A stretch of 40,640 bases of DNA, taken from NCBI GenBank assembly GCA_018664825.1, contig JABJNO010000022.1, positions 1 through 40,640 on the forward strand. Direction: 5' to 3'. The notes beneath the pieces were generated by a model, which saw nothing but the letters and a program-made list of their open reading frames with translations, was not told where the DNA came from and searched no databases. Of this stretch, positions 13,705-19,711 are shown in pieces (position 1 is the first letter of the stretch; every line of letters begins with the position of its first letter). The position numbers were made by a program, and so were the translations under genes. The stretch comes from Candidatus Parcubacteria bacterium (GTDB taxonomy: Bacteria; Patescibacteriota; Patescibacteriia; UBA1558; GWA2-36-10).

Positions 13705-15081
13705 ATGAAGAGGCACTATAAAAAATTTACATTATTTATTCTAGCAATTTTTTTGGTGGTGTCTGGTTTTGGTTGCAAAGGTGTGAATTGTGGAAATTCA
13801 CAAGAATTCAAAAAGGTTACTCTCCAATATTGGGGAGTGTGGGATTCTTCAGCCAACATCATACCGCTTATTAGAGAGTATGAAAAGGCTCACCCAACTG
13901 TAAAAGTTGAATACAAGCAATTACGTTTTGAAGAATACGAAAGAAAACTTCTAGAAGCTTGGGCTGATGACAGAGGTCCAGATGTCTTTGCTTTACCAGT
14001 GAGCTGGCTAAAAGAATACGAACATCGTTTGGCCCCAATGCCAAGTAATACCAAGGTACCCGTCTATGAACTACAGGGAGCTATTCGTTCTGAAATGGTA
14101 ACTACGCTAAAAACATTTAGTGGCCTAAGTCCTTATGATGTTAATAAATTATTTGTACCAATAGTAGATGACAATGTAGTTATAAACAACAAGGTTTATG
14201 GACTACCATATGCTTTGGACACTTTAGTTACTTTTTATAACTCAAATATTTTGGCCAATCAAAATATTCCAGAGCCAATAAAAGACTTTCATGATTTGAT
14301 TGAGCAAACTCCAAAAATTACCACTTCTCGTGATGGCAGTAGTATTTTGCAGTCAGCTGTGGCTCTAGGAGGCACTGATAATATTCCTGTTTTCTTTGAT
14401 ATATTTTCTAGCATCATGCTTCAAAATGAAGTAAATGTCAAAGGTGATTTCTTTGATCCACTAGACGACAAAGCATCAGCTCAAAGAATGGCAGAGGTAT
14501 TCAATTTTTACGCTGACTTTGCTAAACCAGGTAGAGCTAGTTATAGTTGGAATGCTGATATGGACAACGCTTTTGATTTATTTATAAATGGCCGCTTAGC
14601 TTATTTCTTTGGCTATAGTTATCATGCCAATGAAATTCGTGAAAGAGGAGTTTCTTTCGAGTGGGATGTTACAAATTTTCCTCAAGCTAGAGGTGCTAGT
14701 GAAACAAAGTATTATGCAGATTATTGGGTAAATGTAGTACCAAAAAAATCCAAATCTACTAACGTTGCTTGGAATTTTGTTCAAACAACAGCCACGGATA
14801 AAGGCCTTATCAAAGGATATTTGAATGCCAACAAAAAACCAACCGCTTTACGTTCACTGGTAAATGAACAGTTAAACAATAACGATGTTAGGATTTTTGC
14901 TGAGCAGGTTATGACCGCCGACAATTGGTACAAGGGTTATGACCAGCCATCTGCCGAAAGGTATACCAAAGAAATTATAGATGGATTGTTGGATGGGACA
15001 TTGTACCTGGATGATAGGGGATCAACTTTAGAACTTTATGTGAGTCGTATAAATAAAACTTATTCAAAAATAGATGAGTAG
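13705..15081 (+). CDS. Extracellular solute-binding lipoprotein (ABC sugar SBP, family 1-like)
   Basis: Lipobox VSGFGC; VTLQYWGVWDSSANIIPLIREYEKAHPTVKVEYKQL; YGLPYALDTLVTFYN; WVNVVPKKSKSTNVAWNFV. Confidence 0.88.
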   Translation: MKRHYKKFTLFILAIFLVVSGFGCKGVNCGNSQEFKKVTLQYWGVWDSSANIIPLIREYEKAHPTVKVEYKQLRFEEYERKLLEAWADDRGPDVFALPVSWLKEYEHRLAPMPSNTKVPVYELQGAIRSEMVTTLKTFSGLSPYDVNKLFVPIVDDNVVINNKVYGLPYALDTLVTFYNSNILANQNIPEPIKDFHDLIEQTPKITTSRDGSSILQSAVALGGTDNIPVFFDIFSSIMLQNEVNVKGDFFDPLDDKASAQRMAEVFNFYADFAKPGRASYSWNADMDNAFDLFINGRLAYFFGYSYHANEIRERGVSFEWDVTNFPQARGASETKYYADYWVNVVPKKSKSTNVAWNFVQTTATDKGLIKGYLNANKKPTALRSLVNEQLNNNDVRIFAEQVMTADNWYKGYDQPSAERYTKEIIDGLLDGTLYLDDRGSTLELYVSRINKTYSKIDE

Positions 15082-15721
15082 AATTATTATTACAATTTTT
15101 ATCCTTTTATTGATTCCTATCTCTGGACACGCTGGATTTTTGGATGATATATCTTGTATCAACAACGGACAATGTGGATTAGATTCCATAGTCAAGGGCT
15201 TTGTAAATCTTACTAGGCTAATGCTAGGATCTATGGGAGCATTTGCTTTACTATATTTTGTCTGGGGAGGTATTCAGTGGCTCACTTCTGGTGGTAATGC
15301 AGATCGAGTAAACAAGGGTAGGCAGATAATGATAAATACCTTTTGGGCACTAGTGATTGCTTTTGGTAGTTTTATACTGTTAGATTTTTTTGTAAACGAT
15401 GTTCTGGGAGTAAAAGATGAATATCAAATCACCTCTGTTTGTAGTAATCCTACAACCAGTAAAGGTACCGCCTGTAATCAGACAGTGGGCAGTCCTGGCA
15501 ATAGTTTTTATATGTGCACGGGTCATGGGTATGAAGGGGCTTTAGAGGTTTATAATGGTAAATGTAGATCTCGATGCGAAGTCAAAGGATTGGACGATGA
15601 GATTTATCAAACTCCGTTTGTTTGTAGACATATTTCTTCTTTTGGCGGGGCAATTCCTGCCAATGCCGCTAGTAGTCTTTGTCCAGAAGGATCTGATTTT
15701 TTATGTGTACCACCGTCATAA
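15074..15721 (+). CDS. T4SS/VirB2-like pilin paralogue 1 with Cys-rich C-terminal extension
   Basis: Signal peptide plus two TM helices; shared core WGGIQWLTSGGNADRVNKGRQIM; extension carries several Cys. Confidence 0.75.
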   Translation: MSRIIITIFILLLIPISGHAGFLDDISCINNGQCGLDSIVKGFVNLTRLMLGSMGAFALLYFVWGGIQWLTSGGNADRVNKGRQIMINTFWALVIAFGSFILLDFFVNDVLGVKDEYQITSVCSNPTTSKGTACNQTVGSPGNSFYMCTGHGYEGALEVYNGKCRSRCEVKGLDDEIYQTPFVCRHISSFGGAIPANAASSLCPEGSDFLCVPPS

Positions 15722-15739
15722 TAACCTAAAATATTATAT

Positions 15740-16063
15740 ATGAAAAAGAAATTTTTTACTTTTTTAGCACTTTTATTGATACCATTCTCGACTTATGCTG
15801 CCGGGGTATCAATAGAAAACCCTCTTAATGCAGGTAGCATAGAGGAGCTTATTGGTAATGCTATTCGAGGATTATTAGGTATTAGTGGAGCCTTGGCTTT
15901 ACTTATGATGGTTTGGGGTGGTATTTCTTGGATGACTGCTCATGGTAATTCCGAAAGAGTCAAAAAAGGGCGTGATACAATGGTTTGGGCAATATTTGGT
16001 TTGGTGGCCATATTTAGTAGTTATGTGGTTATAAATTTTATTTTTACAGAGCTACTAGGCTAA
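15740..16063 (+). CDS. T4SS/VirB2-like pilin paralogue 2
   Basis: Signal peptide, two TM helices, WGGISWMTAHGNSERVKKGRDTM. Confidence 0.8.
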   Translation: MKKKFFTFLALLLIPFSTYAAGVSIENPLNAGSIEELIGNAIRGLLGISGALALLMMVWGGISWMTAHGNSERVKKGRDTMVWAIFGLVAIFSSYVVINFIFTELLG

Positions 16064-16067
16064 TAGA

Positions 16068-16096
16068 TTGCGAAAAACTCGATTTTAATTTATAAT
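16068..16096 (+). promoter_or_regulatory. Candidate promoter of pilin paralogue 3
   Basis: TTGCGA (16068-16073), 17 nt, TATAAT (16091-16096). Confidence 0.5.
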
Positions 16097-16125
16097 ATAA
16101 TTAATAAAGTTTTAAAATACCTTTT

Positions 16126-16140
16126 AAGAAAGGGGGTGAA
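16126..16140 (+). promoter_or_regulatory. Very strong Shine-Dalgarno site of pilin paralogue 3
   Basis: AAGAAAGGGGGTGAA before ATG at 16144; near-complete anti-SD complement with one G.U wobble. Confidence 0.75.
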
Positions 16141-16143
16141 AAA

Positions 16144-16491
16144 ATGAGAAAATTAGTTACTGGTTTATTACTTGTGATGCCAATGATGGCATCTGCCCAA
16201 ACTACAGAAGAATGGGGTATAGATGATTTAGATCAAGTAAATCTAGGTACAAGGAGTTTGAGAGACACTATCGCTGGTGTTATCAATATTGTTCTAGGTT
16301 TCTTGGGTATCTTAGCAACAGTTATTATTTTACTTGGTGGTTTCAAATGGATGACTTCACAAGGTAGCACTGATAAAGTTGATGAAGCTAAAAAGCTTAT
16401 CGGCGCCGGTGTTGTTGGTTTAGTTATTATCTTGACTGCTTATGCAGTATCAAGATTCGTCTTAGAGTCATTAGCAAACGAAACTGTTTAA
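16144..16491 (+). CDS. T4SS/VirB2-like pilin paralogue 3
   Basis: Signal peptide MRKLVTGLLLVMPMMASA; core LGGFKWMTSQGSTDKVDEAKKLI. Confidence 0.82.
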   Translation: MRKLVTGLLLVMPMMASAQTTEEWGIDDLDQVNLGTRSLRDTIAGVINIVLGFLGILATVIILLGGFKWMTSQGSTDKVDEAKKLIGAGVVGLVIILTAYAVSRFVLESLANETV

Positions 16492-16507
16492 GTCTCATAG
16501 ACCTATG

Positions 16508-16558
16508 TAGTCTAGACTATAGTAGGTCATATTGTATGACCTACTAGAGCTTGGACTA
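16508..16558 (+). other. Long perfect hairpin between pilin paralogues 3 and 4
   Basis: TAGTAGGTCATA-TTG-TATGACCTACTA (12 bp stem, 3-nt loop), with outer TAGTC/GACTA pairing. Confidence 0.8.
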
Positions 16559-16568
16559 AATTTAAATT

Positions 16569-16967
16569 ATGAAAAAATTAAAACAAAAATTATTTTTATT
16601 GATTTTATTGATGCCAACTTTGGCAAATGCTGAAAGTTTAGCAGATAGCAAAGGAGGCTTGGATGATGCGGTTGCTGGGACAGGATTACCACAAAAGACT
16701 ACTTCTGAAATGATTGGCCTGATTATCAATGCAGCCCTGTCTATACTAGGTGCTTTATTCTTGACCTTGATTATTATTGGTGGCTTCAAGTGGATGACTG
16801 CTGGTGGTAGTAGTGAAAAAATAGGCGAGGCCAAACAAACAATTTCCAATTCGGTAATCGGTTTAGTGATAGTAATAGCTTCATATGTGATAGTAAATAC
16901 TGTCTTTCAAAGATTGGCCGGTGAGCTCGGCAGCGGAGGCAGCGTCAACGGAGTTCCTGCTCCATAA
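16569..16967 (+). CDS. T4SS/VirB2-like pilin paralogue 4
   Basis: Signal peptide; IGGFKWMTAGGSSEKIGEAKQTI core; Gly/Ser-rich tail. Confidence 0.82.
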   Translation: MKKLKQKLFLLILLMPTLANAESLADSKGGLDDAVAGTGLPQKTTSEMIGLIINAALSILGALFLTLIIIGGFKWMTAGGSSEKIGEAKQTISNSVIGLVIVIASYVIVNTVFQRLAGELGSGGSVNGVPAP

Positions 16968-16984
16968 TAATAAATTATATAAAA

Positions 16985-17020
16985 TTTAAACCCCCTCAAG
17001 TTTTCTTGAGGGGGCTTTTT
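16985..17020. terminator. Bidirectional intrinsic terminator between pilin array and minus-strand lipoprotein
   Basis: AAACCCCCTCAAG-TTTT-CTTGAGGGGG-CTTTTTG. Confidence 0.9.
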
Positions 17021-17021
17021 G

Positions 17022-17702
17022 TTACCGGTCTACGGTAACGCTATAGTGCCAGTCGACCGGCTCCAGATAACCTTTACCCAGGTCAACCCACTGATCTCCC
17101 TTTTCTTTATCGATAGGGATTCGGATTTGCTGGGCCTCTTTGTAGAGGCGGTTACCTTGCCAGATTTCGACAGTGGCCAGGAGAACGCCATCAACGGCGT
17201 CGAACAAAGGTGTTCTACCGTAGGGCGGAATCATTCCAAATTTGCGACCACCTGCAGTGATGCGCATAGGATAGGCATCGAGGTTGAAGATACAGCCTTG
17301 CTGAAGGGTACGATTTTGGAGCATCATATCAGTGACCACGATGGGCTCACCAGTGTAGAGTCCAGTCTTGATCAGTTCAAGTCCGCGCTTGCTGTCGCCG
17401 ATCGTATTGTCGAAACCTTCACCGTAGGTGAAAACTTCGATTCGAAGGGTCTCATGGGTCTTCATCCGACGATGGTGAGTCCGACCAGGATCGACTTGCC
17501 AGTAGTCCCGGTTGTCTTCATGAATCTTGATGAAGATAGGTCGGGGGGTTTGATTGATCACTACGGGTTGGATCTCGACGTTGGGGTTGTTACGCGGGGC
17601 GTTGAGCCGCATACCTTTGGTATTGCGGATTCCAGCTCCACAGCCACCGAGCATCGACAGCACGATAACAGCGAACAGAGCGGTAGTTAGATGCCTTTTC
17701 AT
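17022..17702 (-). CDS. GC-rich secreted lipoprotein of unknown function
   Basis: MKRHLTTALFAVIVLSMLGGCGAG signal peptide/lipobox; SD AAGGAG 6 nt before ATG; TTGACA-17-TACAAT promoter. GC about 55% over a sampled line. Confidence 0.8.
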   Translation of the reverse strand: MKRHLTTALFAVIVLSMLGGCGAGIRNTKGMRLNAPRNNPNVEIQPVVINQTPRPIFIKIHEDNRDYWQVDPGRTHHRRMKTHETLRIEVFTYGEGFDNTIGDSKRGLELIKTGLYTGEPIVVTDMMLQNRTLQQGCIFNLDAYPMRITAGGRKFGMIPPYGRTPLFDAVDGVLLATVEIWQGNRLYKEAQQIRIPIDKEKGDQWVDLGKGYLEPVDWHYSVTVDR

Positions 17703-17713
17703 TGGCTTCTCCT

Positions 17714-17729
17714 TTATTTAAGGTACTTT
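17714..17729 (-). repeat. Leader block AAAGTACCTTAAATAA, shared with 31635-31650
   Basis: 15/16 identity to AAAGTACTTTAAATAA in the leader of the gene at 31671; both sit in 5' leaders upstream of an SD. Confidence 0.6.
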
Positions 17730-17763
17730 TATGGGCAGAATTGCCCTTTTTGAACATCGCTAT

Positions 17764-17792
17764 ATTGTATCACATTTATGCTATTTTGTCAA
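17764..17792 (-). promoter_or_regulatory. Near-consensus promoter of the GC-rich lipoprotein
   Basis: Minus strand TTGACA (17792-17787), 17 nt, TACAAT (17769-17764). Confidence 0.8.
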
Positions 17793-17812
17793 TAGTAATT
17801 ATTGTTTTGTTT

Positions 17813-17827
17813 TGCTATAATTATGAT
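17813..17827 (+). promoter_or_regulatory. Extended -10 promoter of DUF2079-like gene, leaderless configuration
   Basis: TGC-TATAAT (TATAAT 17816-17821), 6 nt to ATG at 17828. Confidence 0.6.
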
Positions 17828-19711
17828 ATGTTAAAAATATCTAAGAAACAAGGAAAATGCGCCAAAATACTGTTTATGGGTATATTTTTTTATGTTTTGG
17901 TGTTTTCTTATCTATCTTTACAAAAATATCTAAACTTTGATTATCATATCTATGACTTGGGCATTTTTAGCCAGGTATTTTTCAATACTTTACGTGGAGA
18001 TTGGTTTCATCTAACGATCAATCCAAATATATATTTAGCAGACCATTTTACGCCTATTATGATTTTGTTGTTGCCGATTTATTGGATTTGGCAATCCCCT
18101 ATTTGGCTCCTTGTTTTACAAAGCCTTGTTTTTGGATTATCTGCTTGGCCACTTTATCTAATAGCCAAACAAATTACCAACAGTAGTAAGCTAGGAATGA
18201 TTGTTGGCTTGGTTTGGTTGCTCAACCCATATGTGCATAGCGCCAATCTATTTGAGTTTCATTTGATGCCCTTGGCTGTGTTTTTTATTTTTTGGACTTT
18301 TTATTTTTATAAAAAAAATAATTTCGTTTATTTTTTATTATTCTTTATTTTGAGTCTACTGGTGCGAGAAGACATCGCGCTTGTATTACTAGGGTTCTTT
18401 GTTTTGAGTTTGGTAGATAAAAGAAAACTAAAATGGAAACTAACAACTTTATTTTTGCCGATCATATATTTTGTTTCAGCTCTAAAGATAATAGATTATT
18501 TTTATCAAGGAGGTAACTACAAATTTTTTATTTATTATGGTTGGCTCGGGGGAGATAGTTTGAGTACTATTTTGTGGAGCTGGATTACTCATCCCATTGC
18601 ATTGTTGATACATATTTTTAGTTTACAAAACCTTGGTACAGCCATTATTGTTTTATTACCATTTTTATTTTTACCGTTACTTAGAAAAAAATATTTATGG
18701 CTAATGCTTTTTCCATTTTTACAATTATTGATGACAGCTAGCAGCCTAGATTTTATGGTTTATAGCGGACATTATATATTATTGTTTTTGCCAGCTTTAT
18801 TTATTGCCCTGATCTTTGCAATCCAAAAGATAAAAAATAAAGAAAGATTTTTGGGTAGTGATTTGATATACAAAAACAAACAGGCATTTTTTATAATAAG
18901 TGGTTTTACGGTTTTGTATTTTTTGATTTTCTTATCCCCGGTCAAATCTATTGTTTTTGCAGATTATAATCAAGAAAGACAAAACATAAACCAAGGGTTT
19001 GTTTCTATGATTGGGGAGCAAGACAGGATAATAGCCGAGTCTACATTTGTGCCTCAACTTAGTTCCCGCAAAGATTTGCATGCATTATCATATAGTTATT
19101 TTGGTGTTAGTCAATTTGCTGGTTTTGAGTTCAAGGCTCCAGAAGTCGAGTATATTTTGGTAGATTTTTCACAAGCTATGTCTATTTTGACTGAAAAACA
19201 TCAAAATCAACTATTACTAGAGCACAAAGAAAATATGGCCTCCAATTGGAGAGAGTATTTAAATGATTACAACCTGATCAAGGCTAGTAATAACGTACTT
19301 TTATGGCAAAATAAAAAAAACAACCCAAATGTAGAAAACTTGGATTTGTTTGCTAGACAGATAAAGCTAGATGAGTTTGATAGTTTAGATTTTTTGGTGG
19401 AAAATCAGTACAGTGATAATCATCTCAAGCTAACTTTTCAAAAAACACATGCAGAAGAAAAAGAATACCTAGTGCGTTTTTATAAAGAAGATTATTTTTA
19501 TGATGTTGTTTTGGACTATATGATGTTTCCAGAAAAAGAATGGGCAGACAATGAGTTGATTAGTTTTTATTATTATCCTGATCAACAAGTTGAGTCTTTC
19601 CAAATATTTAGCTGGTATGGTCAAAACAAATTTGGCAAAAGAAAACAATTGGTGGTAGATATAGATGTTGAGCCCGAGTCAGACAAGATCAATCTATCTG
19701 ATATACAATAA
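17828..19711 (+). CDS. DUF2079-like multi-TM protein (GT-C-like)
   Basis: FDYHIYDLGIFSQVFFNTLRGDWFHLTINPNIYLADHFTPIMILLLPIYW is typical of DUF2079. Start placed at 17828, downstream of the -10 box, rather than the listed 17702. Confidence 0.82.
   Translation: MLKISKKQGKCAKILFMGIFFYVLVFSYLSLQKYLNFDYHIYDLGIFSQVFFNTLRGDWFHLTINPNIYLADHFTPIMILLLPIYWIWQSPIWLLVLQSLVFGLSAWPLYLIAKQITNSSKLGMIVGLVWLLNPYVHSANLFEFHLMPLAVFFIFWTFYFYKKNNFVYFLLFFILSLLVREDIALVLLGFFVLSLVDKRKLKWKLTTLFLPIIYFVSALKIIDYFYQGGNYKFFIYYGWLGGDSLSTILWSWITHPIALLIHIFSLQNLGTAIIVLLPFLFLPLLRKKYLWLMLFPFLQLLMTASSLDFMVYSGHYILLFLPALFIALIFAIQKIKNKERFLGSDLIYKNKQAFFIISGFTVLYFLIFLSPVKSIVFADYNQERQNINQGFVSMIGEQDRIIAESTFVPQLSSRKDLHALSYSYFGVSQFAGFEFKAPEVEYILVDFSQAMSILTEKHQNQLLLEHKENMASNWREYLNDYNLIKASNNVLLWQNKKNNPNVENLDLFARQIKLDEFDSLDFLVENQYSDNHLKLTFQKTHAEEKEYLVRFYKEDYFYDVVLDYMMFPEKEWADNELISFYYYPDQQVESFQIFSWYGQNKFGKRKQLVVDIDVEPESDKINLSDIQ

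Follow-up and report, generated by a model that had tools for sequence, protein, structure and literature searches.

A GC-rich, fast-evolving lipoprotein gene convergent with a VirB2-like pilin array in one family of Patescibacteria

The Patescibacteria family considered here consists of ultrasmall, host-dependent bacteria. VirB7 is a small lipoprotein partner of VirB9, and genes of outlying composition are normally taken as recent transfers. According to one report, VirB2 arrays are widespread in Patescibacteria, and one such array is essential for the epibiotic growth of Ca. S. epibionticum (PMC12102498). The window analyzed in this study, a stretch of 40,640 nucleotides from Candidatus Parcubacteria bacterium (contig JABJNO010000022.1), contains a comparable PF18895/PF04956 array, with which a lipoprotein gene lies tail-to-tail. 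The lipoprotein itself is not a pilin, and the available part of that report describes the arrays without a lipoprotein partner, a compositional anomaly, or an intergenic hairpin. Like VirB7-type T4SS lipoproteins, it evolves rapidly and adjoins T4SS pilus genes, but it is larger (approximately 205 aa when mature, with a probable beta structure) and occupies a separate convergent transcription unit. Membership of the VirB7 family found no support in Pfam or NCBIfam, and the scan of window proteins revealed no VirB9-type gene; neither VirB9 nor VirB10 genes were seen in the window, and the same genome encodes a VirB4-type ATPase at another location. The gene also shares high GC, its own promoter, a Shine-Dalgarno motif (SD), and a mostly lineage-specific occurrence with the GC-rich accessory or horizontally acquired genes of AT-rich bacterial genomes. 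It differs from them in being syntenic and conserved in the family and in having kept its composition at saturated divergence.

In the gene order of the window, rpoB/rpoC, ftsK, and recA are followed by polysaccharide genes and a gene for a solute-binding protein, and then by the VirB2-like T4SS pilin array. Four pilin genes occupy positions 15074-16967, all on the forward strand: a longer pilin-like gene of 215 aa (15074..15721; PF18895, E 2.5e-5, just under the curated cut-off), a T4SS_pilin/TrbC-VirB2 family gene (15740..16063; PF18895, E 1.6e-12, and PF04956, E 8.9e-8), a T4SS_pilin-family gene (16144..16491; PF18895, E 1.1e-7), and a further VirB2-like member of that family (16569..16967; PF18895, E 5.5e-11), which is convergent with the lipoprotein gene. 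On the other side, the divergent neighbor is an ORF for a DUF2079 membrane protein (17702..19711 (+); PF09852, E 2.6e-61), whose true start probably lies near 17829.

The lipoprotein coding sequence (17022..17702 (-)), delimited by its ORF and translation and by its orthologues, encodes a precursor of 226 aa with a signal peptide and an LGGC lipobox at residues 18-21 (17640..17651 (-); Cys21), the sequence features of a bacterial lipoprotein cleaved by signal peptidase II. It is preceded by a TTGACA-17-TACAAT promoter (17764..17792 (-); -35 at 17787-17792, -10 at 17764-17769) that matches the consensus at 11 of 12 positions and has TG before the -10 box, and by the SD AAGGAG (17709..17714 (-)), 6 nt before the ATG. 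The sequence-only reading of this region had described the promoter, the SD spacing, and the lipobox in these terms, and all three held; its terminator belonging to the gene alone did not, because the hairpin at 16988..17017 (no strand assigned) is bidirectional and common to the convergent pilin gene 3. Two further elements were considered and rejected. A small 5'-UTR hairpin (GGGC-AATTCT-GCCC, 17733..17746 (-)) had a comparable counterpart in only about half of the orthologues and is not taken as a conserved element. An antisense ORF of 223 codons (17019-17690 (+)) is open across the whole lipoprotein gene because TTA, CTA, and TCA codons are nearly absent from the latter; since this frame is broken in most orthologues and has no Pfam match, we regard it as a by-product of codon usage rather than an overlapping gene.

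The GC content of the lipoprotein CDS is 0.518, compared with 0.353 for the window, and amounts to 0.59, 0.39, and 0.58 at the three codon positions. None of 392 equal-length stretches of the rest of the contig reached this value (maximum, 0.436), and the CDS topped the GC ranking of 531 ORFs of at least 90 aa in the 586 kb of stretches sampled from the 1.16-Mb genome (G000). The composition step is sharp at both edges of the gene, and the 150 nt upstream of the CDS has a GC content of 27%; the GC excess is therefore confined to the CDS. These comparisons, which the sequence-only reading had proposed, bear out its description of a GC-rich gene in a region of roughly one-third GC. The codon-adaptation comparison proposed with them gave a codon adaptation index (CAI) of 0.36, at the 0.6th percentile, and a codon usage anti-correlated with that of ribosomal-protein genes (r=-0.17), so the gene is not optimized as they are.

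The gene had further been called an orphan. A profile search found orthologues in 16 of the 21 genomes of the family, including the window's own (15 full-length copies and one fragment at a contig edge), and no match in 16 genomes of the order that fall outside the family; the gene is thus conserved and family-restricted, although it belongs to no Pfam, NCBIfam, or PDB family. A single-protein search matched seven other genomes of the family, a first contig search with the single sequence as query gave no match, and a second contig scan returned two homologous records, from a Patescibacteria group bacterium and an uncultured bacterium. An alignment of eight members contained no stretch conserved enough to serve as a query. 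In one genome, a weak second match to the profile (G002:C66:1413-1652; E 1.4e-4) may represent a paralogue.

The orthologues are linked to VirB2-like pilin genes, as at a T4SS pilus locus, in these 16 of 21 genomes, and the gene is convergent with the array wherever the locus could be read. Three genomes of one genus (G006, G019, and G020; L110, L111, and L112) keep the pilins and have DUF2079 directly after them, leaving an empty site, while G016 of the same genus carries the lipoprotein gene; in the two remaining genomes, which gave no match, contigs break near the pilins. Among the 15 full-length copies, the lipobox Cys is invariant, the SD motif is always present, and a sigma-70-like promoter matching 10-12 of 12 positions, with a spacing of exactly 17 nt, lies 49-87 nt from the start codon. 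Each of these CDSs also exceeds its adjacent pilins in GC, by a mean of 11.5 points overall and 27 points at third positions (Wilcoxon p=6e-5); GC3 ranges from 0.40 to 0.81 in the lipoprotein copies and mostly from 0.18 to 0.40 in the pilins (0.50 in the GC-richer G012). The flanks of the orthologues, from 150 to 60 nt upstream, have a GC content of 13-38%. Mean identity among the copies is approximately 20%, compared with 44-55% for the neighboring pilins. The nearest relatives of the copies are those of the same genus, and the distances among the lipoproteins are correlated with those among the pilins (Mantel p=0.02 and 0.0006). By these sequence comparisons, the gene is vertically inherited and fast-evolving.

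The mature domain, to which the sequence-only reading could assign no family, matched no family in Pfam or NCBIfam at the curated cut-offs, with only chance-level matches across the 15 orthologues, and searches of PDB by sequence and of phage and plasmid sequences found no natural relative. Along approximately 50 positions, the profile matched Ig proteins designed de novo (E 5e-6), which would be compatible with an Ig-like beta-sandwich without establishing one. Two AlphaFold models, each built on three sequences, were mostly beta but of low confidence (pLDDT 46 and 43), and the mature lipoprotein is probably all-beta.

Within the array, the stretch that separates pilin genes 2 and 3 carries a conserved hairpin (TAGTCTAGACTATAGTAGGTCA-loop-TGACCTACTAGAGCTTGGACTA; 16502..16562 (+)). 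A pattern search placed the hairpin in 18 of the 21 family genomes, and G012 brings the total to 19; G024, a member of the same order, has it as well, and there is about one copy per genome. In its alignment, 95% of the cells are paired, and three pairs have changed on both sides (10 cells) in a compensatory manner. It matched no Rfam family, and a class-wide search gave a single further weak match, apparently unrelated. The hairpin is a candidate new structured RNA, perhaps an element for mRNA processing or stability of the pilin transcript.

Taken together, we consider it probable, with modest confidence, that the gene is native to the T4SS-pilin locus and encodes a surface lipoprotein that has been inherited vertically and evolves fast, and that selection on its mRNA or coding sequence maintains the GC content. 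Its anatomy predicts that a strong housekeeping-type promoter drives the gene as a single unit, facing the pilin array tail-to-tail, and that translation begins by SD-led initiation. The signal peptide and lipobox suggest that the precursor would be exported and lipid-anchored at Cys21. The conservation of the locus suggests that the lipoprotein most likely acts at the cell base or surface alongside the VirB2-like pili, where it could serve as an anchor, an adhesin, or a surface partner; judged from gene order, a surface partner of the pilus would be the most economical function. It would not be essential to the pilus everywhere, since three genomes keep the pilins without it. The retention of GC richness and a strong promoter in every full-length copy points to selection for structure or stability, acting on the mRNA or the coding sequence, as the simplest cause of the GC excess.

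We considered the folding of the coding sequences, in tests with 15-30 permutations per gene and mostly truncated sequences, which were chosen while exploring, so that their p-values are descriptive. The lipoprotein CDSs were more stable than synonymous permutations keeping the protein and the codon counts (mean z -2.9), compared with approximately -1.0 in low-GC genes of the same genomes, and a local synonymous null (-2.65) and a dinucleotide null (-3.26) agreed with this excess. GC as a trivial cause of the signal was rejected, because genes of GC-richer relatives showed little excess (-0.63 in G012, 45% GC; -0.33 in G049, 64% GC). The window's own copy had a weak excess under the local null (-0.6). 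The excess was nearly equal on the sense (-2.65) and antisense (-2.46) strands and so fits an action at the RNA level and a cause at the DNA level alike. Other SD-led GC-rich genes showed the same tendency as the lipoprotein CDSs; in G000 and G016, 12 GC-rich genes that lack an SD were intermediate (mean -1.87), and the link between the signal and the SD is thus not a clean one.

The SD-led genes form a distinct class in composition. An SD was carried by approximately 15% of the sampled genes, compared with approximately 3% in control windows, in agreement with the earlier remark that most neighboring genes lack one, and the anti-SD sequence ACCTCCT is intact in the 16S of the relative G016 (the 16S of the window's own genome is partial). 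In the window's genome, the 77 SD-led genes average 41.8% GC, compared with 35.9% for the rest (p=1e-17); the values in G016 are 45.5% and 35.8% (p=7e-12). G027, which belongs to a different family of the order, shows almost no such link (29.8% and 28.9%, p=0.04). Approximately 67-77% of the 5% most GC-rich genes carry an SD. The GC-rich SD-led genes are mostly accessory, with few homologues in relatives, and the lipoprotein is a conserved exception; GC richness would be a maintained coding-sequence property common to the SD-led GC-rich accessory genes of the two family genomes sampled. A second lipoprotein-like gene (MKHILTIILILAASMLFVGC...) of the window's genome (L048, 3380-4105 (+)) is SD-led and has a GC content of 50.4%. 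As a tentative extension, possible rather than probable, this one Patescibacteria family may have two gene regimes: an AT-rich, SD-less majority and an SD-led GC-rich class of approximately 10-15% of genes, mostly accessory, with coding sequences selected for secondary structure, of which the lipoprotein gene would be the most widely conserved member found.

Among the other explanations for the GC excess, two are unlikely to a similar degree. The gene may have been acquired before the radiation of the family and not yet have ameliorated. The search of 16 other genomes of the order found no copy, which places the gene's origin or arrival at the base of the family and fits this history; however, orthologue identity of approximately 20% implies that synonymous sites have turned over many times, and slow decay would not be expected to leave the GC3 gap to the pilins that persists at this divergence. 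The second assumes a diversifying surface-antigen locus whose high GC is sustained by GC-biased gene conversion or recombination. It would account for the fast divergence of the protein relative to the pilins, and competent, exchange-prone lineages are plausible here. We consider it improbable, as conversion tracts should spread into the flanks, whereas the GC excess stops near the CDS borders, and the GC effect spans many unrelated SD-led genes.

Less probable still is ordinary translational selection for high expression, in which optimal codons would accompany the strong promoter and SD. The near-consensus promoter and SD of all orthologues are what this explanation predicts, but ribosomal-protein genes have a GC3 of mostly 0.20-0.36 and almost no SD, and the opposite codon usage of the lipoprotein gene argues that its GC does not derive from such optimization. 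The earlier proposal of a specially selected, highly expressed surface protein accordingly fares well on the promoter, SD, and lipobox Cys shared by all 15 full-length copies and poorly on codon usage.

The other earlier proposal, that one GC-rich gene was recently acquired by horizontal transfer from a foreign donor, is very improbable. The composition is the most extreme among the sampled ORFs, and most other GC-rich SD-led genes are accessory, as such an origin would suggest; nevertheless, syntenic orthologues of the same composition occur in 14 other genomes, plus one fragment, and the low-GC flanks, the lack of phage or plasmid homologues, and the vertical pattern also stand against it. 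The patchy distribution of a recently transferred gene was not seen, and the sequence-only reading had itself named homologues of the same composition in syntenic positions as the mark of a native gene; similarly GC-rich syntenic homologues across the family refute a recent transfer. An assembly chimera or contaminating sequence, suggested by the sharp composition steps at both gene edges, is excluded for practical purposes, because the same gene order recurs in independent assemblies of 15 other genomes.

Under the preferred reading of a native lipoprotein of the pilin locus, the composition outlier is syntenic and vertically inherited, with a GC excess kept at saturated divergence, and composition alone would therefore mislead about its origin. 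The gene adds a new candidate component to a pilus locus with a presumed important role in life on host cells. If the coding-structure signal holds, it would indicate that, in ultrasmall bacteria dependent on a host, selection on the structure of mRNA or DNA is specific to a class of genes and tied to SD-led initiation.
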